Assembly: GCA_017301995.1 (NCBI GenBank)
Contig: JAFLEH010000020.1
Coordinates: 62,001 to 126,000, forward strand
Reading direction: 5' to 3'
Source of the DNA: Verrucomicrobiota bacterium
GTDB taxonomy: Bacteria; Verrucomicrobiota; Verrucomicrobiia; Verrucomicrobiales; Akkermansiaceae
Length of the DNA: 64,000 bases
This document shows positions 10,620-63,410 of the stretch, piece by piece; position 1 is the stretch's first letter, and each line of letters starts with the position of its first letter. The position numbers were made by a program, and so were the translations under genes. The notes beneath the pieces were generated by a model. It saw nothing but the letters and a program-made list of their open reading frames with translations. It searched no databases and had not been told where the DNA came from.

Positions 10620-10639
10620 ATGTGACAGCATTGTTACAT
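10620..10639. promoter_or_regulatory. Dyad GTGAC-N6-GTTAC, candidate regulator site
   Basis: ATGTGACA and TGTTACAT form an 8-bp dyad (one G-T pair) around GCAT. On the minus strand it also reads as two 7-mers, TGTAACA and TGTCACA, separated by 4 bases, which is the 11-bp repeat geometry of a Pho box. It lies about 105 bases upstream of the start at 10515, between two minus-strand genes of the PstS-like cluster. Similar dyads lie at 15128-15143 and 17013-17028. Confidence 0.4.
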
Positions 10640-15114: not shown

Positions 15115-15127
15115 TGGAATGGTAGTT

Positions 15128-15143
15128 GTGACGGAAATGTCAC
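15128..15143. promoter_or_regulatory. Dyad GTGAC-N6-GTCAC upstream of the first tandem PstS gene
   Basis: A perfect GTGAC/GTCAC dyad has a 6-base spacer. It also reads as TGTGACG, four bases, TGTCACG, the 11-bp direct-repeat geometry of a PhoB box. It sits 126 bases upstream of the PstS-like start at 15270 and just after the phosphofructokinase stop. Confidence 0.45.
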
Positions 15144-15269
15144 GATCTTCCGCTATCCGGAACGGATTTAGGGTGGAATGGTCCTACTCGCGGGCCGTCG
15201 GGCCGATGCCGCGCGGCACTCCGAAATCCGCGAAACACCCCACCAACCAACACGACATCCATCACAGCC

Positions 15270-16085
15270 ATGAAATCCATGTTAACAAATTTGCTTGCCG
15301 TCTGTGTGCTGACGGCGACCACCGGTGCCCAGACCCTCAGCCTCAAGGGATCCGACACGCTTGGCGCGAAGCTTGTGCCCCAACTTGCGGAAGCTTTCAA
15401 GGCAGCCGGCAACACCAAGGTGAAGTTCGAGATCGCCGCCGAAGGCTCCACCACCGCGTTTCCGGCACTGGCCAACGGAACCGCGCATCTCGGGATGTCA
15501 TCACGCGAGGTCAAGGATGACGAGCGCACTTTCTGCCGCACCAAAGGGGTCAACCTCGTGGAGCACAAAATCTGCTATGATATGCTATGTGTCATCGTGA
15601 ACCGGAACTCGCCTGTTAGCAAACTCACCAAGGAGCAGGTCGCCAAAATCTTCACCGGGCAGGTCAAGGACTGGTCGGAAGTCGGCGGAGTCCCCGGGCC
15701 GGTTTCGATCTACACCCGCAACACATCTTCCGGCACCTACAAGGACTGGCAGAAGCTGGCGATGAACGGCCGCGACTATCCGGCGAATTCGCAGAAACTC
15801 GCCGGTAACGAGCAAATCGCCCAGGAGGTTGCCAAGAACAGGAATGGCATCGGCTATGTGGGCCTCGCGTACTCGAAAACCACCGGCACCAAGGCTCTGC
15901 CGATCGACGGCGTCGAACCGATCGGCAAGAACGCCGAGAAATACGCCTATTCCCGCCCCTGCTTCATCTACGCGCCGGACAAACCGACCGTCGAGGCCGC
16001 CGCGTTCATGGCATTCATCGAACAGCCGGAGGGACAGGAGGTCGTGCGCAAGGTGGGCTTCATCCCGGTGAAGGACCTGAAGTGA
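15270..16085 (+). CDS. PstS-like phosphate-binding protein, tandem copy 1
   Basis: 271 residues. The signal peptide MKSMLTNLLAVCVLTATTGA is followed by LSLKGSDTLGAKLVPQLAEAF, the N-terminal ligand loop of PstS-type proteins. AAEGSTTAF, LGMSSRE, FTGQVKDWSEVGG and YTRNTSSGTYKDW are the further anion-binding and hinge motifs. It is short for PstS, as in the PBP_like_2 group. Copy 2 follows directly. Binding of phosphate or another oxyanion in the periplasm is inferred; no ABC permease is adjacent. The leader is rich in CACC/CAAC and has no Shine-Dalgarno sequence. Confidence 0.85.
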   Translation: MKSMLTNLLAVCVLTATTGAQTLSLKGSDTLGAKLVPQLAEAFKAAGNTKVKFEIAAEGSTTAFPALANGTAHLGMSSREVKDDERTFCRTKGVNLVEHKICYDMLCVIVNRNSPVSKLTKEQVAKIFTGQVKDWSEVGGVPGPVSIYTRNTSSGTYKDWQKLAMNGRDYPANSQKLAGNEQIAQEVAKNRNGIGYVGLAYSKTTGTKALPIDGVEPIGKNAEKYAYSRPCFIYAPDKPTVEAAAFMAFIEQPEGQEVVRKVGFIPVKDLK

Positions 16086-16191
16086 TTGCGATCTTTCCGG
16101 CGGCATGCATCCGGCCAAGGGCAAGCCGCCGGGACATCCCGTTCCCCGGCCGATGACTTCTCCTGGGGCGTGGCCGGTCGGCCGTTTCAGC

Positions 16192-17007
16192 ATGCCAGTT
16201 CCAGTCAGAGTTCTGCTAGCCACCTTCCTGTTCTCCGGCGGGCTTCTGGCGGAGGTTATCAGGATTCAGGGTTCTGACGTCCTTGGAGCGAAGCTGGTGC
16301 CAAAACTTGCTGAGGCCTTCAAGGCGGCTGGCAACCCCGAGGTAAGATTCGAAATCGTCGCCGAGGGATCGCCTAGTGGGTTCCAACTCCTCGCAAACGG
16401 CGCGGCGGATCTCGGCATGTCGTCGCGCAAGATCACGGATCAGGAGCGAACGCTGTGCGAAACGCGGGGCGTCACCCTGGAGGAGCACCGGATCTGCCAT
16501 GACATGCTGTGCGTGATCGTACACAAGGACTCATCCGTGGCCGAACTGACCAAGAATCAGGTGGCCGGGCTATTCACCGGTGAAATCCAAAATTGGTCCG
16601 GGGTGGGCGGTTCGCCGGGTCCGGTTGCCATCTACACCCGCAACACCGCATCCGAATCCTACAGGGTTTGGCGGCATCTGGCCATGGGAGGGCGTGATTA
16701 CGGACGTGCCTCGGTCAAGCTCGCCAGTGGCGAAAGCGTCACCCAGCAGGTGGCAAAGGATCGCAACGGTATCAGCTATGTCGGTCTCGCATCATCGAAA
16801 ACGCCGGGCATCAAAGTGTTGCCGATAGACGGCGTCGAACCGATCGGCAAAAACGCCGAGAAATACGCGTTTGCGCGCCCTTGCTATATCTACGCGCCGG
16901 ACAAGCCGACCGTACAGGCCGCCGCGTTCATGGCATTCATCGAACAGCCGGAGGGCCAGGAGGTCGTGCGCAAGGTGGGCTTCATCCCGGTGAAGGACCT
17001 GAAATGA
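16192..17007 (+). CDS. PstS-like phosphate-binding protein, tandem copy 2
   Basis: 271 residues, exactly the length of copy 1 once the start is placed at 16192, where MPVPVRVLLATFLFSGGLLA gives a signal peptide. The same motifs appear: IQGSDVLGAKLVPKLAEAF, VAEGSPSGF, LGMSSRKITD, FTGEIQNWSGVGG, YTRNTASESY. Two positions that are Thr in copy 1 (GSTTAF) are Pro/Ser here, so ligand preference may differ. The last 93 bases are almost identical to copy 1 while the rest has diverged, which suggests recent gene conversion. Confidence 0.85.
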   Translation: MPVPVRVLLATFLFSGGLLAEVIRIQGSDVLGAKLVPKLAEAFKAAGNPEVRFEIVAEGSPSGFQLLANGAADLGMSSRKITDQERTLCETRGVTLEEHRICHDMLCVIVHKDSSVAELTKNQVAGLFTGEIQNWSGVGGSPGPVAIYTRNTASESYRVWRHLAMGGRDYGRASVKLASGESVTQQVAKDRNGISYVGLASSKTPGIKVLPIDGVEPIGKNAEKYAFARPCYIYAPDKPTVQAAAFMAFIEQPEGQEVVRKVGFIPVKDLK

Positions 17008-33071: not shown

Positions 33072-35108
33072 TCAGTTGACGGGCACCAGGGCCGGATTCG
33101 AGCAGCGCTCGGCATGCGCTCTCGAAGGCGATTCATCCAACAATCTCAGACCGGTGATCTGGTCCAGATTTAGCAGCAGGCAGGTTTCGGGATCGCTCGC
33201 GGGGCGCGCCGGCGCTTCCGCGCCGCTTCCCTGATAGCGGGCAACGGTGGAGACCCGGACGTAATCGATCTGGCCGGCGAAATGGGAGGTGGCGGTGCCC
33301 GCCCCGTCCACGTCTCCGCCGATCACGAGCGGCAGGTCGTTGCGTTTGCGGAGGCCCTGGCGAGCCGCGGAAGCCACCAGCTTTCCATCCAGATAGAGGC
33401 GCGCTTCCTTACCGTCGTAAACTCCGGCCAAATGGTGCCACCGTCCGGTTTCCAAGATCGGCTTGCCGGGCCTGACTGATAGATAATCGTCGCCGATGAA
33501 GACGCTGAAAGTGGGTCGGCCACCGTTCACGAAGATTCCATAGTCCGACCCCTGCGCCTTGGTGACCAGGCCGGTCCGTTTGCCAAATGAGTCCGCCTTG
33601 AAACGGCACTCAAGAGTGAACGTTTCGCCGGGATCGAAACTCTTCGAAGGGACCCTGACAAAATCGTCCTTGCCATCGAAGCGAAGGGCTCGGTTGGGAA
33701 TCGACGCTCTAGCCGCCGGGTCGAGCGCCACCGGAATCGCGATGGGCCGCGTGGGGATCGCATAGCGGTATCCCGGAGCCAGATAGCCGGCGTCCAAGGT
33801 CAACACCGGATCGCGGAACGACTCGTCGATGGGCGAGGCAAGCCGGGCCACCTGGAATTCGAGCGAGGTTGCCGCGCCGGGCGCAAGCACTCCGGTCCGG
33901 TGATCCGGATCGAAGGACCAGCGGCTGTCCTCGCTGCCCGCGGCCAGGGTGTACTCGACGGGGCGGCTCGTCGGATTGGCAATCTTGGTTAGAACCTTGC
34001 CGGTGGCGGACCCGTCCGCCCGGACCGGCAGATCCGGAGCGGGCACGATTTTTTGCTCACCGAATCTGGCGGTTTCCGCTATCAGGGTGCCGGACATCTC
34101 CCGTGGATCGAGCGTCTTGCCGACAGGGATCGCGGCCAGGGAGATGCCATCCTTGCGGACGGTCACGACATCGAAGTGATGGAGAAAGCCGAGCGCCTCC
34201 CCATACCCCGGAACATGGCCCCCGGTTGTTGCCAGGGTGATATATTCGATGCCGTCGCGGGGACCGTCGCTGCGCATCTGATGGATATGTCCGCCGAACA
34301 CGGCGCGGACGTTTCCGTTGGCCTTGAGCAACGCGTGGACCCGGTCCCAGTCGTCGCCGTAGCCGCCATGTTCGATGGTCCTGAGCCAGCGCGGGTGATG
34401 GATGAAGATGAAGACATGATCCGCGGACTTGGCTTTTGCCAGAGTGGATTTCAGCCAATCGAACTGACTCGCGCTCATTTTCTGGGCTTGCTGGTTTTTG
34501 AAGTCCTTGGATCCATCCGGGTTCGTGCCTTCGTCCCCGAACAGCACGACGAACCAGCAGCGGCGGTGTTCGAAGGCGTACCAGAGGGGACCGAAGTGCT
34601 TTTCAAACAGTGATTCGTTCTCGCCCTCCGGCCGCTTTGCGCCCTCCGGGTCCCTCCAGTAAACATCATGGTTTCCGGCCACAGGAAACCACGGGCAAGC
34701 AAGGTGTTTCATCACCGATTTGAATTCATCGGCCTGGGGAACCCATTTGTCAGCCGAGTTATATCCTTGCACCATATCGCCGACCATCATCACCAGGTCG
34801 GGTGAGAGCAGATTCGCGTCCCGCACCGCGTCGGCCAACACACCAACGCCTTCGGGAGGCCCGCCGGTCCGGTCGCCGAAGACCACAAAACGGAACGAAT
34901 CCTCCGCGACAGGCAGGCGCAGCGCGGCGGCGCCATCGCGGGTGGTGGTGAACCGGGCCGGACCGGCCGGCACGGACGGGAGGGCATCCTGATAGCGGTG
35001 ATGGTGGCGGGTGTGGCCGATGTTAGGATAGGCGGGCTCCTCGCAGAAACCGAAAGAGGCGAGGGCGGAAATGGCCAAGACGGCGGAAAACGAAGTGGAG
35101 CGGCTCAT
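33072..35108 (-). CDS. Exported calcineurin-like metallophosphatase with C-terminal LamG domain
   Basis: 678 residues. The start at 35108 (MSRSTSFSAVLAISALASFGFC) is a signal peptide; upstream frame is non-coding. Metallophosphatase core at about 70-330: VFGDRTGG, MMVGDMVQG, VAGNHDVYW, IFIHHPRW and FGGHIHQMR. A beta-rich linker follows, then a LamG/concanavalin-like domain (about 500-660): LRFDGKDDFVRVP, WHHLAGVYDGKEARLYLDGKLVA. LamG probably binds a glycan or surface. It lies 31 bases upstream of the phosphonatase-like gene in the same orientation and 185 bases after the anti-sigma-like gene. Confidence 0.88.
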   Translation of the reverse strand: MSRSTSFSAVLAISALASFGFCEEPAYPNIGHTRHHHRYQDALPSVPAGPARFTTTRDGAAALRLPVAEDSFRFVVFGDRTGGPPEGVGVLADAVRDANLLSPDLVMMVGDMVQGYNSADKWVPQADEFKSVMKHLACPWFPVAGNHDVYWRDPEGAKRPEGENESLFEKHFGPLWYAFEHRRCWFVVLFGDEGTNPDGSKDFKNQQAQKMSASQFDWLKSTLAKAKSADHVFIFIHHPRWLRTIEHGGYGDDWDRVHALLKANGNVRAVFGGHIHQMRSDGPRDGIEYITLATTGGHVPGYGEALGFLHHFDVVTVRKDGISLAAIPVGKTLDPREMSGTLIAETARFGEQKIVPAPDLPVRADGSATGKVLTKIANPTSRPVEYTLAAGSEDSRWSFDPDHRTGVLAPGAATSLEFQVARLASPIDESFRDPVLTLDAGYLAPGYRYAIPTRPIAIPVALDPAARASIPNRALRFDGKDDFVRVPSKSFDPGETFTLECRFKADSFGKRTGLVTKAQGSDYGIFVNGGRPTFSVFIGDDYLSVRPGKPILETGRWHHLAGVYDGKEARLYLDGKLVASAARQGLRKRNDLPLVIGGDVDGAGTATSHFAGQIDYVRVSTVARYQGSGAEAPARPASDPETCLLLNLDQITGLRLLDESPSRAHAERCSNPALVPVN

Positions 35109-35293
35109 GGAGAGAAATGGATCATACGCGCCTCGCCGGAGACACCCATCAAACAGTGTCGATTTCGACACATTGCGCGCGATGTGGCCGCCAATGGTTC
35201 GGGGGCTTGGAATCCCCCGACTGTCGGGTTGCCGCCAGCCAAGCCTTCCGGCCGAGCGTGCGGCTTTGCCCGTCTGGCCGCGGCTCGCCTTCA

Positions 35294-46898: not shown

Positions 46899-46984
46899 GG
46901 CGCCATCATGCGCCCTCGCGCGGATCTCCCACGACCGGGCGTGTGACGATTTCGTCGCTTGCGACGGGGCTCCCGGCGCCCAAT

Positions 46985-56124: not shown

Positions 56125-56330
56125 TTCCCGCCATCTAACAAGATCGCCCATTCTGACGAATCCGACGGGGGGTAGCCATGCCCACTTTGGCTATCCTGTC
56201 GCTGTAGCCGGGATCGTTGGAATCCCATGCCGTGTGACGAAACCGTTTCACTCCCGCTCTGGAGCAATGCTGGCTGTGGCGCACGATTCGGCCTGCGCCC
56301 CGCGGGTGCCACAATCAGCAATCCAATCTC

Positions 56331-57161: not shown

Positions 57162-57267
57162 AATATTCCCCGTGCCCCGCGGAGCGTGGAGGCAAGTCCC
57201 CCTGTGTGGCGGGATTGTCACGGATTGACGGTTGGAGCGGCTGAATCCTTGGTCAATACGGAGCCTC

Positions 57268-58599
57268 ATGCACGGCAGTTTGAACGGAGGATTTGGCAAA
57301 TTCTGGGTCGTGACCGCGGACATGGGTTACGGGCACCAGCGCGCGGTTCACCCCCTGAGGGACATCGCCGAGGAGGGCATCATCACCGTGGGCTCATCGG
57401 CGTCGATTCCGGAATCCGAACGGAAACTGTGGAAGCGGTTGCTGGGTGCCTACGAGTTTTTCTCCAGGGCCAAAGGGCTGCCCGTGGTGGGACCGCCGCT
57501 GTTTTCCATGCTCGATTCGATGCTGAAGATCCCCGCGTTCTATCCGATGCGGGATCTTTCCAACACCACCTTCCAGGTCAATCTGCTCGAATCGCTGGTC
57601 GAAAAAGGCCTTTGCCAGGGCATGCTTGAGACCACCGCGCGCAAAAGGACCCCGGTCATCACCTCTTTCTATGCCTCGGCGATCGCCGCCGACCGGAAGG
57701 GGTTCAACAAGGTGTATTGCATTGTCTGCGACGCGGACATCAACCGGGTGTGGGTGGCGAAAGCGCCATGGGAGAGCAGGGTGGAATATTTCGCCCCCTG
57801 TGGCAAGGCGGCCCAGCGTTTGCGGGCCTACGGTGTGCCAGACTCGCGGATTCATCTAACTGGATTTCCCCTTCCGATGGAGCTGCTCGGCGATGAGAAT
57901 CTCGGCGTGCTCAGGAGGAATCTGGCCCGGAGATTGCGCAGGCTGGATCCGCAGGGGAAATTCCGGGCCCGTCACGGGAGGAATGTGGACCATTTTCTTG
58001 GACCGTTCGAGGGATCCACTGGAAATGACGGGGCGCTGACAATCACCTACGCCGTGGGCGGCGCCGGCGCGCAGAAGGAGATCGGCTGGAGAATCGCCCG
58101 CGGTCTCAGGGCAAAACTGATTGCGGGAGAGGTCCGCTTGAATCTGGTCGCGGGAATCCGGAGGGAGGTGAAGGACTACTTTGACGAGGTCAAGGCCGAC
58201 ATCGATCCCGGCGGGGATGGCATCCGGATCATCCACTCCGAATCGCTGCACGGGTATTTCGATCGGTTCAACCAGGCCCTGCACGAGACGGACATCCTTT
58301 GGACCAAGCCGAGCGAGCTTTCGTTCTATTGCGGGTTGGGAATCCCCATCATCATGAGCCCCACCATCGGCTCGCAGGAAAAGTTCAACCGGAAATGGCT
58401 CAGGGAGATCCGAGCCGGAATCAAACAGGAGAATCCGGACTATGCGGACCAATGGTTATATGATATGTTGAACCGCGGAACACTGGCCGAGTCCGCATGG
58501 GACGGTTTCCTGAAAGCAAGGAAGCTCGGAACATTCAACATCATGCGAGTGCTCGGCAACGGCTTCCTCGAACGGGCGACCGATCCGGTGATGAGGTGA
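57268..58599 (+). CDS. GT28/MGDG-synthase-like glycosyltransferase homologue
   Basis: 443 residues; the ATG at 57268 is preferred to a TTG at 57232. The N-terminus, KFWVVTADMGYGHQRAVHPL, resembles the first strand and Gly-His loop of MurG/MGDG-synthase-type GT-B enzymes. The second half has ALTITYAVGGAGAQKEIGWRIARGL, LNLVAGIRREVKDYF, DILWTKPSELSFYCGLGIPIIMSPTIGSQE, the donor-binding pattern of GT28-like proteins. No membrane segment is seen. The next gene is an OlsF-like acyltransferase 72 bases away. A role in lipid glycosylation is inferred from fold and context. Confidence 0.75.
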   Translation: MHGSLNGGFGKFWVVTADMGYGHQRAVHPLRDIAEEGIITVGSSASIPESERKLWKRLLGAYEFFSRAKGLPVVGPPLFSMLDSMLKIPAFYPMRDLSNTTFQVNLLESLVEKGLCQGMLETTARKRTPVITSFYASAIAADRKGFNKVYCIVCDADINRVWVAKAPWESRVEYFAPCGKAAQRLRAYGVPDSRIHLTGFPLPMELLGDENLGVLRRNLARRLRRLDPQGKFRARHGRNVDHFLGPFEGSTGNDGALTITYAVGGAGAQKEIGWRIARGLRAKLIAGEVRLNLVAGIRREVKDYFDEVKADIDPGGDGIRIIHSESLHGYFDRFNQALHETDILWTKPSELSFYCGLGIPIIMSPTIGSQEKFNRKWLREIRAGIKQENPDYADQWLYDMLNRGTLAESAWDGFLKARKLGTFNIMRVLGNGFLERATDPVMR

Positions 58600-58671
58600 T
58601 GGGACCGCGGGCGGAAATTGTCACAATTCACCGATTGACGGGCGACTTCCGCCGACGGCACGCTCCGCACC

Positions 58672-60534
58672 GTGACTGATAGGAATTCGCCACGGCCCGA
58701 AAATGAAATCAATACGATCCTGATGCCAACCTTCGCGACGCGGGGACCGCTCCGTCTGGTTGCGGCCGCCGCCAACCGCCTGCTGGCGGTGGACCACCTC
58801 AACCAACTCTATCTGGATGCCACCGCGGATGCGACCGGAGGTGGATTTCCCGACCGCGTCCTGCGCCGCCTGCAGCTCCGCTACGAGGTTTGTGAACGGG
58901 ACATCCGGCGGATTCCCAGGGACGGTCCGGTGGTGGTCGTGGCCAATCACCCGTTCGGCGGCGCGGAGGGACTGATCCTCGCCTCGCTGCTGGAATCGGT
59001 GCGGCCGGATGCCAAGCTGATGGCCAACTTCCTGCTGGATCGTGTTTCCGGCTTGCGGGAAAAACTCATCCTGGTGGATCCTTTCAACGGCCCATCGTCC
59101 CGCGCGACGAACTTCCGCCCTTTGCGCGAGGCGATCTCATGGCTTCGCAAAGGCGGCATGCTGGCGGTCTTCCCGGCAGGCGAGGTGTCCCACTTGCAAG
59201 TGGGCAAGGGCGGGGTGACGGACCCGCCTTGGAGCGACACGGTGGCGCGCATCATCCGTCTATCAGGAGCAACCGTGGTACCGGTGTTCTTCGCGGGATC
59301 GAACGGCCCGCTGTTCCAGTTGGCCGGCATGCTCCATCCGAGATTGCGCACGGCTCTTTTGCCGAAGGAGTTGCTCAACAAGCGCCAGCGGACCATCACC
59401 CCCCGCGTCGGCAATCCGATCCGTTTCAAAAAACTGGAACACATGTCGGACGAGGAAATGATCGGTCATCTCCGGGTCAGAACCTATCATTTGGCCGACC
59501 GGGCCATGCCGGACAAGATTGGCAAAGCGAAATGGAAACTTCCGCTGGTGGCCAGCCTGCCGCGGCCGAGGTTGGAGCCACTGATCGATCCGGTGGATCC
59601 CGCCGTGGTGGCCGAGGAAATCCGCAGGCTTGCGGATGACCGGCGGCTTTGTTCGTCCGGCTCTCTGGAGGTGTATTACGGAAGCGCCCGAGAGTTGCCG
59701 CAGACGCTGCGCGAAATCGGGCGGCTGCGGGAACAATCCTTCCGCGCGGTGGAGGAGGGCACCGGATGCGCGCTGGACCTCGACCGTTTCGACGCCACCT
59801 ATCTGCATTTGTTCCTGTGGGACGCCAGGGAGTCCCGGATCGCGGGAGCATACCGCCTGGGCCGCACCGACGAGATTCTGGCGGATTCCGGCAAGAAGGG
59901 GCTGTACACCACCACGCTATTCAGGATCCGCAAGAAGCTGCTCAGGTCGATCGGGCCCGCGTTGGAAATGGGCCGCTCCTTCGTCTGCCCGGACTATCAG
60001 CGCCAGTTGTCCCCGTTGATGTTGTTGTGGAAGGGTATCGCCGCCTATGTGGCGCGCCATCCCCGGTACAAAACGCTCCTCGGACCGGTTACCATCACCC
60101 ACGAATACCAATCCATGTCAAAACATCTTCTCGCGGCGTTTCTCAAGCGGCATGAAAGTCTCCCGCACCTCGCCAGGTATGTTAGGCCGCGCAAGCCGAT
60201 GTGGGTCGATCCGGTTTCCCGTACCAAGCTCCGCAAGCTGCGCAACGCCGCCGCCGACATCGATGACGTGGACCAACTCATCAGCGACATTGAGACCAAG
60301 TTCGAAGGCATGCCGGTGCTGCTGCGCCAGTACCTCCGCCTTGGAGGAAAACTGCTCGCGTTCAACATCGATCCGGACTTCTGCAATGTGCTGGACGGGT
60401 TGATTCTCGTGGATCTGACAAAGAGCGACCCGCGCATTCTCGGGCGCTACATGGGTCCGGCCGCTCTCGCGGAATTTCTGAAATACCACGGCGCGGAACT
60501 GAAACTCGTGGCGGGCGAGGCTTCAGACGGTTGA
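58672..60534 (+). CDS. Bifunctional acyltransferase, OlsF-like (ornithine-lipid synthase type)
   Basis: 620 residues from GTG 58672; ATG 58723 is an alternative. The N-terminal half (about 85-300) is a PlsC/OlsA-like O-acyltransferase: VVVVANHPFGGAEG (catalytic His), then FPAGEVSHLQ and VPVFFAGSNG. The C-terminal half (about 330-510) is an OlsB-like GNAT N-acyltransferase: REIGRLREQSFRAVEEGTG, EMGRSFVCPDYQRQLSPLMLLWKGI and TITHEYQSMSKHLL. This order, O-acyl then N-acyl, is that of OlsF, which makes ornithine lipid from ornithine and two acyl groups. The acyl-acceptor amino acid is not proven here. It lies in a lipid-related locus. Confidence 0.85.
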   Translation: MTDRNSPRPENEINTILMPTFATRGPLRLVAAAANRLLAVDHLNQLYLDATADATGGGFPDRVLRRLQLRYEVCERDIRRIPRDGPVVVVANHPFGGAEGLILASLLESVRPDAKLMANFLLDRVSGLREKLILVDPFNGPSSRATNFRPLREAISWLRKGGMLAVFPAGEVSHLQVGKGGVTDPPWSDTVARIIRLSGATVVPVFFAGSNGPLFQLAGMLHPRLRTALLPKELLNKRQRTITPRVGNPIRFKKLEHMSDEEMIGHLRVRTYHLADRAMPDKIGKAKWKLPLVASLPRPRLEPLIDPVDPAVVAEEIRRLADDRRLCSSGSLEVYYGSARELPQTLREIGRLREQSFRAVEEGTGCALDLDRFDATYLHLFLWDARESRIAGAYRLGRTDEILADSGKKGLYTTTLFRIRKKLLRSIGPALEMGRSFVCPDYQRQLSPLMLLWKGIAAYVARHPRYKTLLGPVTITHEYQSMSKHLLAAFLKRHESLPHLARYVRPRKPMWVDPVSRTKLRKLRNAAADIDDVDQLISDIETKFEGMPVLLRQYLRLGGKLLAFNIDPDFCNVLDGLILVDLTKSDPRILGRYMGPAALAEFLKYHGAELKLVAGEASDG

Positions 60535-61181: not shown

Positions 61182-63161
61182 CTAAAGGGCCCGCGCCAGT
61201 GCCTGAGGGAGCTCAGCCTCCACCGGGCATGGGGTTTCCACCGGCTTCAGTTCGGGGACGGCGGCCGGGGCGCGCAGGCGGCTGACGAATTCCTGATAGC
61301 GCACGAGTTCCAAGCCGCCGTCGTGGTGCTCGACGATCGCGGTCAGGCTTTCCACCCAATCGCCGGAATTCATATAATGGACCGCGCCTACCTGTTTGTC
61401 CTCCGGGGTGTGGATGTGGCCGCAGATGATGCCGTCGCACCCGCGGTGGCGGGCGAGCTGTTGGAGAAGGTCCTCGTAGCGGTCCACGAAGCACACGGCG
61501 GATTTGACCTTGGCCTTGATGCGCTTGCTCAGGGAGTAGTACTCCTTGCCGCGCCAGGCCCGGTATTTGTTATAGATCCGGTTGATCTGGAGCAGAAAAT
61601 CATATCCCACCGAGCCGACCACGGCCAGCCAGCGGTGGTTGGTGGAAACGCTGTCGAATCCGTCGCCATGCACCACGAGATACTGCCTGCCCGCCGCGGT
61701 TCGGTGGATGTGTTCCTTCACCAGCCGGACCCGTCCGAACGCGAGCGGCATGAACCGTTCGAGAATGTCATCGTGGTTGCCGCGCAGATAGATCACCTCG
61801 GTGCGGTCGCGTTCGGTCAGCTTGAGGATCTTGCGGATCACCCGGCTGTGGCGCGACGACCAGCGGGACCCGCGCTTGAGCGCCCAGGCGTCGATGATGT
61901 CGCCGTTGAGCACCAGCTTGTCGCATTCGATGTGTTTGAGAAAATCGACCACTTCGTCGGCCTTGCTGTCGGGCGTTCCAAGGTGCAGGTCGGATAGAAA
62001 CACGGTGCGGCAGGAAAGTTTGGGTCGCTTTCCGGGTTTCCCTCGGGTGCCGCTCTGGCGTCTCCCGGCGAGTTCCAACAGGTGGCGTTCGAAGTCCGCC
62101 ACCACCGGTTCCCACGCGAGGCCCGCGGCGGTTTCCCGCGCCTCGGCACGCAGCGGATCCTGAGGCTTCAGTCCGAGCGCCGCCAGCGCGAGCGCGGTGA
62201 AGCTCGCGGCATCGCCTGGCGCCGCTTTGAAGCCGTTCTCGCCGTGAAGCACGTGCATGGCGGCGGCCGCGTAATCGTAGCTCACCGTCGCCAGACCGCT
62301 GGCCATGCCCTCCAGCAGAACATTGCCGAAGGTCTCCGTTTCGCTGGAAAACACCAGTACGTCGGCCGATGCGTAATGCCGGGCGAGTTCGGGGCCGGTT
62401 AGGATGCCGGTGAAACATACCCACGGATATTTCCGCTCGAGTTCGCCGCGCAGCGGGCCGTCACCCACCACCACCACACGGACATCCGGGACCTCGCGGC
62501 GCATGCTCTCGAAGGTGGCGAATGCCAGTTCCAGATTCTTCTCCGCCGCCAGGCGGCCGACGCTCAGCGCCACCGGGGTGCCCGGGCGCGCTCCCCACGA
62601 CGAGCGCAGCGTTTCGCAACGCTTCGCGGGATCGAACAGCTCGCAGTCCACGCCGCGGCCCAACAGCCTAACAACACCGAATCCCTCCGCTTCGAGTCTG
62701 GCGCGGACGTCGGGCGACGGGGCGATCGTGCAGTCGGCCAACCGGTGGAAATCCCGCAGGTAGGCCGTGGTGATCGGTTCGAGCGCCCGCAGGTGGTATT
62801 TCTCGGCGTAATGTTGGAAATTGGTGTGGAAACCCGCCGCCACCGGGATGCCCAGCGCCTTGGCGGCGCGGATCGCGGATTTTCCAAGCGGGCTTTCGGT
62901 GGCCACGTAAACCGCGTCCGGACGCCGGCGCTGCCAGCGGGCCCGGAGTTGGAACGGCTTGGGGAGGCCCACTCTAACCTCGGAGTAGCCGGGCACCGGA
63001 ATCGCGGCCACGCGGGTTTCGCCGTCGGCCTCGGTCTTGCCGGTATGGACCACACGGACGCTGTGGCCACGCGTCCGCAACCCGTCGGTTAGGCGGCCGA
63101 GGGTCATGGCGACCCCGTTGACATCGGGCCGGAAGGTATCGGTGACAATTTCGATTCTCAT
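61182..63161 (-). CDS. Glycosyltransferase (GT4) fused to PlcP-like metallophosphoesterase
   Basis: 659 residues; start at 63161, MRIEIVTDTFRPDVNGVAMTL being the usual GT4 N-terminus. The GT4 domain (about 1-370) has VAAGFHTNFQHYAEKY, VALSVGRLAAEKNLEL, VVVGDGPLRGEL and ETETFGNVLLEGMASGL (Glu-x7-Glu donor motif), as in MgtA-type lipid glycosyltransferases. The phosphoesterase domain (about 385-615) has SDLHLGT, NGDIIDAWALK, RGNHDD, VVHGDGFD and CGHIHTPE, then MNSGDWVESLTAIVEHHDG, a signature like the PlcP phospholipase C often labelled UDP-2,3-diacylglucosamine hydrolase. PlcP makes diacylglycerol from phospholipid and Agt glycosylates it; here both would be one chain. No membrane segment is seen. 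Biochemical role is inferred. Confidence 0.88.
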   Translation of the reverse strand: MRIEIVTDTFRPDVNGVAMTLGRLTDGLRTRGHSVRVVHTGKTEADGETRVAAIPVPGYSEVRVGLPKPFQLRARWQRRRPDAVYVATESPLGKSAIRAAKALGIPVAAGFHTNFQHYAEKYHLRALEPITTAYLRDFHRLADCTIAPSPDVRARLEAEGFGVVRLLGRGVDCELFDPAKRCETLRSSWGARPGTPVALSVGRLAAEKNLELAFATFESMRREVPDVRVVVVGDGPLRGELERKYPWVCFTGILTGPELARHYASADVLVFSSETETFGNVLLEGMASGLATVSYDYAAAAMHVLHGENGFKAAPGDAASFTALALAALGLKPQDPLRAEARETAAGLAWEPVVADFERHLLELAGRRQSGTRGKPGKRPKLSCRTVFLSDLHLGTPDSKADEVVDFLKHIECDKLVLNGDIIDAWALKRGSRWSSRHSRVIRKILKLTERDRTEVIYLRGNHDDILERFMPLAFGRVRLVKEHIHRTAAGRQYLVVHGDGFDSVSTNHRWLAVVGSVGYDFLLQINRIYNKYRAWRGKEYYSLSKRIKAKVKSAVCFVDRYEDLLQQLARHRGCDGIICGHIHTPEDKQVGAVHYMNSGDWVESLTAIVEHHDGGLELVRYQEFVSRLRAPAAVPELKPVETPCPVEAELPQALARAL

Positions 63162-63410
63162 TTCACGCGCGCGGCGGAAGGTGCCGCTGCGATGCCTATG
63201 CCCGATTGCCGGACGGCGCGCCATACCGCTCATGTGGCGGTTTCGTCACATGAGCGGGGATGGATGGTGGGTGATGTGGCCGCCGGATGTGGAGATGATA
63301 GTCCCGGAACCGTGCGATAATCCGCCATGCGCGCGGGAAATTTCCGGCTTTTCGGGATTGCGGCGGGGGGTGAACCGGGTGAAACTGCGTGCCGCAACCG
63401 AATTTCCGCC
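63162..63410. other. Divergent intergenic region with an 11-bp palindrome
   Basis: This 249-base gap lies between the minus-strand fusion gene and hemL. CCGCTCATGTG (63226-63236) and CACATGAGCGG (63247-63257) pair perfectly around a 10-base loop, 65 bases upstream of the fusion start. It must hold the promoters of both genes. The palindrome fits an operator or a leader hairpin. Confidence 0.5.
63226..63257. promoter_or_regulatory. Perfect 11-bp dyad upstream of the fusion gene
   Basis: CCGCTCATGTG, 10 bases, CACATGAGCGG. Position between divergent genes and 65 bases from one start favours an operator; a leader-RNA hairpin on the minus strand is also possible. Confidence 0.45.

Follow-up and report, generated by a model that had tools for sequence, protein, structure and literature searches.

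A glycosyltransferase fused to a PlcP-type phosphoesterase in Akkermansiaceae, with a predicted role in lipid remodelling under phosphate limitation

The window analysed here, a stretch of 64,000 nucleotides from a Verrucomicrobiota bacterium of the Akkermansiaceae, carries a fused agt-plcP gene on the minus strand (63161→61182), which encodes a glycosyltransferase (GT) and a metallophosphoesterase in one uninterrupted reading frame of 659 aa. With a probability of roughly 0.8, we read its product as an enzyme that remodels lipids in two steps on one chain and is expressed when phosphate is limiting; its catalysis, lipid substrates and sugar are those that we infer from sequence. PlcP-Agt lipid remodelling is well described (PMC4796936, PMC9239053, PMC8528852), while our search of the open literature found no report of a PlcP-GT fusion or of biochemistry on one, nor of a Verrucomicrobial Pho operator. 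What is new here is a conserved palindrome, a candidate operator, that lies before the fusion, before unfused genes and before phosphate genes.

The results show three Pfam domains in the fusion protein, all scoring above their cut-offs: Glyco_transf_4 (14-174), Glycos_transf_1 (184-331) and Metallophos (385-586). The Agt2-like GT4 domain (residues 1-366; 62064..63161, minus strand; EX7E motif E276/E284, H112, R203/K208) presents the GT-B fold, EX7E motif, R/K donor site and catalytic His of Agt-type GT4 enzymes, and in the 62 fusion homologues EX7E, R203, K208 and W350 are invariant or nearly so. A short linker (residues ~367-383; 62013..62063, minus strand) leads to the PlcP-type metallophosphoesterase domain (residues ~385-620; 61302..62009, minus strand). 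Every esterase motif listed in the original prediction is found in the frame, namely SDLHLGT (S390), NGDIIDAW, RGNHDD, VVHGDGFD, CGHIHTPE and NSGDWVES. The dinuclear-metal, calcineurin-like motifs characteristic of PlcP are conserved, with the metal ligands D391, H393, D421, N462, H463, H498, H582 and H584 invariant among the same 62 homologues. An alternative in-frame ATG lies upstream at 63233 and would give a protein of 683 aa; because it overlaps the conserved operator at 63233-63250, position 63161 is the likelier start codon. We collected 72 distinct fused sequences, and the fusion is therefore neither a chance event nor an assembly artefact, so that the single-chain architecture first proposed for this gene stands.

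We propose that the fusion would be expressed when phosphate is limiting. The C-terminal PlcP-type esterase would then remove the phosphate-bearing head group from a phospholipid, PG and/or PE, a step that leaves diacylglycerol (DAG), and the N-terminal Agt2-type GT4 would transfer a sugar, glucuronate or a hexose, from a UDP-sugar onto this diacylglycerol, yielding a phosphorus-free glycolipid. The two active sites would probably be tethered at the membrane in a 1:1 ratio. Against this reading we count the published report that A. muciniphila makes ornithine lipids whatever the phosphate level (PMC9981464).

The original prediction had also suggested true channelling, in which the esterase site would hand diacylglycerol to the GT site inside the protein. 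The retention of the fusion through the whole family and its short linker would suit such a route. However, in the AlphaFold model each domain is well predicted while the linker, which is short and flexible, is of partly low confidence (residues 371-376 below 50) and the inter-domain placement is not fixed (pTM 0.59). Moreover, a second fusion, known from a single genome outside the family (G040), contains a much longer, Pro-rich linker, and in some species the GT has decayed while the esterase is retained. The low-confidence linker, together with the very different linker of the second fusion, favours loose tethering over a tunnel, which makes tethering the more likely arrangement, and we regard channelling as unlikely. 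The same holds for a more ambitious picture, to which we give equally little weight: that the human gut commensal Akkermansia has a one-chain phospholipid-to-glycolipid enzyme with direct diacylglycerol hand-over, controlled by a palindromic Pho box specific to Verrucomicrobia.

To characterize the GT half we compared it with known lipid glycosyltransferases. Its best match in the plasmid collection is a P. aeruginosa protein (43% identity over 361 aa) encoded beside plcR, plcH and cerN, which we take from this plcHR region to be PA0842 (Agt2). In E. coli, Agt2 makes glucuronosyl-DAG (GADG) (PMC8528852). The GT tree places Agt2 inside the Verrucomicrobial GT clade and Agt1-type enzymes outside it. 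The likeness to Agt2 extends to the catalytic motifs and the HMM profile, although Agt2 stands on its own: its gene lies beside plcH/plcR, with no fusion to a phospholipase. Residues of the DAG site have been described for the SAR11 enzyme GTcp (PMC8231724), and H112, R169 and W350 appear to correspond to them. The sequence, profile and tree comparisons support Agt2 as the nearest characterised relative found for the GT half, in agreement with the earlier view of a lipid-type glycosyltransferase.

The curated models leave some room for another acceptor. The closest one to the GT domain is NF053787 (GpgS), a phosphatidylglycerol GlcNAc-transferase, so that PG might take the place of DAG as acceptor; the GT would then glycosylate phosphatidylglycerol and the esterase would turn over phospholipids separately, with no common intermediate. 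Although it is the best curated model, the window GT reaches only 125 bits on it, far below the cut-off of 480, and Agt2, a demonstrated DAG glucuronosyltransferase, scores alike (135 bits). On the Mgs NCBIfam model both enzymes also fall below the cut-off, with 96 bits for Agt2 and 82 for the window GT. In addition, the gene has no adjoining gpgD deacetylase or flippase, and sister families carry the GT gene together with an esterase gene. We therefore hold a GpgS-like activity to be improbable, somewhat more so than channelling, and keep diacylglycerol as the preferred acceptor.

For the esterase half, tblastn gives 47% identity to P. aeruginosa PlcP (PA3219), whose gene copy is immediately followed by a glycosyltransferase gene. 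With a S. meliloti match, flanked by an AHL synthase and a LuxR regulator (sinR/sinI), the identity is 38-40%. By these sin-locus neighbours we presume the latter to be SMc00171, the original PlcP. NxGDWVES, GNHD and HGDxFD are common to the fusion esterase and PlcP, whereas the LpxH enzymes of E. coli and Neisseria have GNRDF and HGDTLC in place of the PlcP-type motifs. On the LpxH model the domain scores 44.6 bits against a cut-off of 134, and known PlcPs score similarly low (38-55 bits). The resemblance to PlcP also covers the pairing with a DAG-using glycosyltransferase and, as judged here from the promoter, phosphate-type regulation; on the other hand, known PlcPs are separate proteins, while here PlcP forms the C-terminal half of a fusion.

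The proposed phylogenetic check gave a divided answer. A long branch, supported at 100/99, separates LpxH, but the tree does not fix where that branch joins: owing to its great length, a placement of LpxH next to the fusion stem passes the AU test (p 0.64). The assignment to PlcP therefore rests on similarity, motifs and context. LpxC is present, and the window's own genome has LpxI, an unrelated enzyme that performs the LpxH step; LpxI is found in 50 of 59 relatives (40 of the 42 good genomes), and none of the 59 genomes has an LpxH above the cut-off. Lipid A synthesis thus makes no demand on the fusion esterase as LpxH, and the objection named beforehand, an Lpx context that needs this domain, fails because LpxI is there. 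Taken together, the evidence largely supports a C-terminal domain that is PlcP-type, not LpxH-type, as had been proposed. That the domain is instead the lipid A enzyme LpxH (UDP-2,3-diacylglucosamine pyrophosphatase), with the GT acting elsewhere in LPS synthesis, is very improbable: the two share a superfamily and a fold, the nearest solved folds are LpxH (TM about 0.5), as expected if the structure library holds no PlcP, and PlcP-type plasmid homologues are annotated 'UDP-2,3-diacylglucosamine diphosphatase', but the LpxH score, the absence of the E. coli-type GNRDF, the presence of LpxI in this genome and nearly all relatives, the identity to known PlcP and an operator common to phosphate genes all speak against it.

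PlcP-type esterases also adjoin other glycosyltransferases. At two further loci (L062:2977-4898 and L224:2369-4410), the partner is a non-GT4 glycosyltransferase in Parabacteroides and a ceramide glucosyltransferase in Pannonibacter, so that PlcP-type esterases pair with several lipid GT families.

We investigated the promoter of the fusion across the family and found a conserved palindrome, TGTGACGAAATCGTCACA, whose distance to the start codon is mostly 71-74 nt, and 46 nt in Akkermansia. At least 10 of the 12 core bases are matched in 35 of the 72 promoters, compared to 0.4 expected from shuffles. Many unfused GT genes in sister families have the palindrome ahead of them too, while solo GT paralogues lack it. 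In the window, the Pho-box-like copy TGTGACGAAACCGCCACA (63233..63250, minus strand) lies 71 nt before the fusion start codon and outscores every other site in the 64 kb on a matrix built with that copy left out, at 25.3 vs 18.5 in a shuffled window. Genome-wide, near-exact sites number only 4-11 in each genome, and the reversed pattern yields none.

The company that this palindrome keeps points to phosphate. In the window's own genome it stands before pstB (376 bits, cut-off 343), which is clustered with a response regulator and a histidine kinase, before pstS, and as a double site before a PhoU-like/PiT operon; in a relative (G004) it stands before a Na/Pi cotransporter and a PhoB-like regulator. 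The E. coli Pho box is a direct repeat, while the Verrucomicrobial operator is a palindrome, and a candidate E. coli-type Pho box upstream of the fusion was discarded after showing no enrichment (8.8 vs 8.7 shuffled). The palindrome looks like a Verrucomicrobial Pho box, and binding of PhoB to it is predicted. Pho control, as expected of a PlcP, is thus indicated at the sequence level by an operator common to pst, PiT, Na/Pi and phoB genes. This shared operator is the strongest new evidence, and it supports the view that the fusion belongs to the phosphate response, the link to phosphate starvation drawn in the original prediction. Two points speak against our reading of the enzyme: the operator occurs upstream of genes with no clear phosphate role as well, and its palindromic form departs from the direct repeat of E. 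coli.

Further Pho-box-like palindromes occur in the window at 10620-10639, 15126-15145, 35154-35173, 46941-46960, 56232-56251 and 57204-57223. Downstream of window palindromes lie the genes for two PstS-type binding proteins (15270-16082 and 16105-17004) and, at 33072-35108, for a secreted metallophosphatase that carries a laminin-G domain and has its palindrome 47 nt ahead; phosphate-regulon genes seem abundant in the window. Candidate members of a Verrucomicrobial Pho regulon, all preceded by the palindrome (L250, L251, L252, L253, L259, L262), are pstB, PhoU-like/PiT, Na/Pi cotransporter, phoB-phoR, TonB receptor and DUF3450 genes.

Convergent with the fusion, at 57232-60534, lie a GT28/MGDG-synthase-like gene (DUF6938) and, directly after it, an OlsF-like ornithine-lipid synthase (388 bits, cut-off 620). 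These neighbours were not found near the fusion in relatives and were dropped as conserved context.

The survey of Verrucomicrobiota suggested at the outset shows that the fusion is family-wide: most members of the window's genus have it, and it extends throughout the Akkermansiaceae, with Akkermansia muciniphila CSUN-56, Haloferula, Luteolibacter marinus, Rubritalea marina and Persicirhabdus among its carriers. Sister families encode the GT and the esterase in neighbouring genes that run agt→plcP, as in the fusion, and the sequence comparison shows a gene-pair origin in which an ancestral adjacent agt-plcP pair was joined. The Proteobacteria examined have the reverse order, plcP→agt. The gene pairs of P. 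aeruginosa, Roseomonas, Sphingomonas, SAR11 and methanotrophs likewise encode the two activities together, but as two genes with plcP first, in contrast to the agt-first, single reading frame described here. A single origin for this fusion and the second one in G040 is rejected by the GT tree (p 0.0076) and is borderline in the esterase tree (p 0.05). Apparent extra fusions in G185, G277 and G059, with equal frame lengths, proved on inspection to be separate genes, and no clean fusion was seen on reading G214.

The fusion is strong gene-fusion evidence for PlcP and Agt acting in sequence, and it offers one protein for assaying the whole phospholipid-to-glycolipid conversion. It also leads us to expect glycolipids that depend on phosphate in Akkermansia and related bacteria, a gut group that has drawn the attention of immunologists through its lipids. 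The palindrome, for its part, provides a candidate Pho operator for the phylum, from which the phosphate regulon may be predicted.

The two halves do not always persist together. Some Akkermansia fusions keep the esterase although their GT is missing its catalytic His, its donor-site motif and the leading Glu of EX7E; in L131 and L132, of the Akkermansia-type genus g18, the catalytic motifs HTNF, EKN and EX7E are gone from the GT half and the esterase half is intact. Akkermansia glycaniphila (L166:1479-2387) has the esterase alone, without any GT half, and several other g18 genomes lack the fusion protein altogether. Since the esterase is retained where the GT is decayed or absent, it can be useful without the sugar step.

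Conversely, fusion genomes contain stand-alone GT paralogues (L096:4818-6083, L085:2956-4119) that lie inside the fusion GT clade without the operator and are apparently copies freed from the fusion. Finally, the fusions of four metagenome-assembled genomes titled 'Akkermansia muciniphila' (L138, L141, L146, L147) resemble those of the window's genus, not Akkermansia, and a fifth so titled (L197) has separate genes that group with Verrucomicrobiaceae; all five names look wrong.
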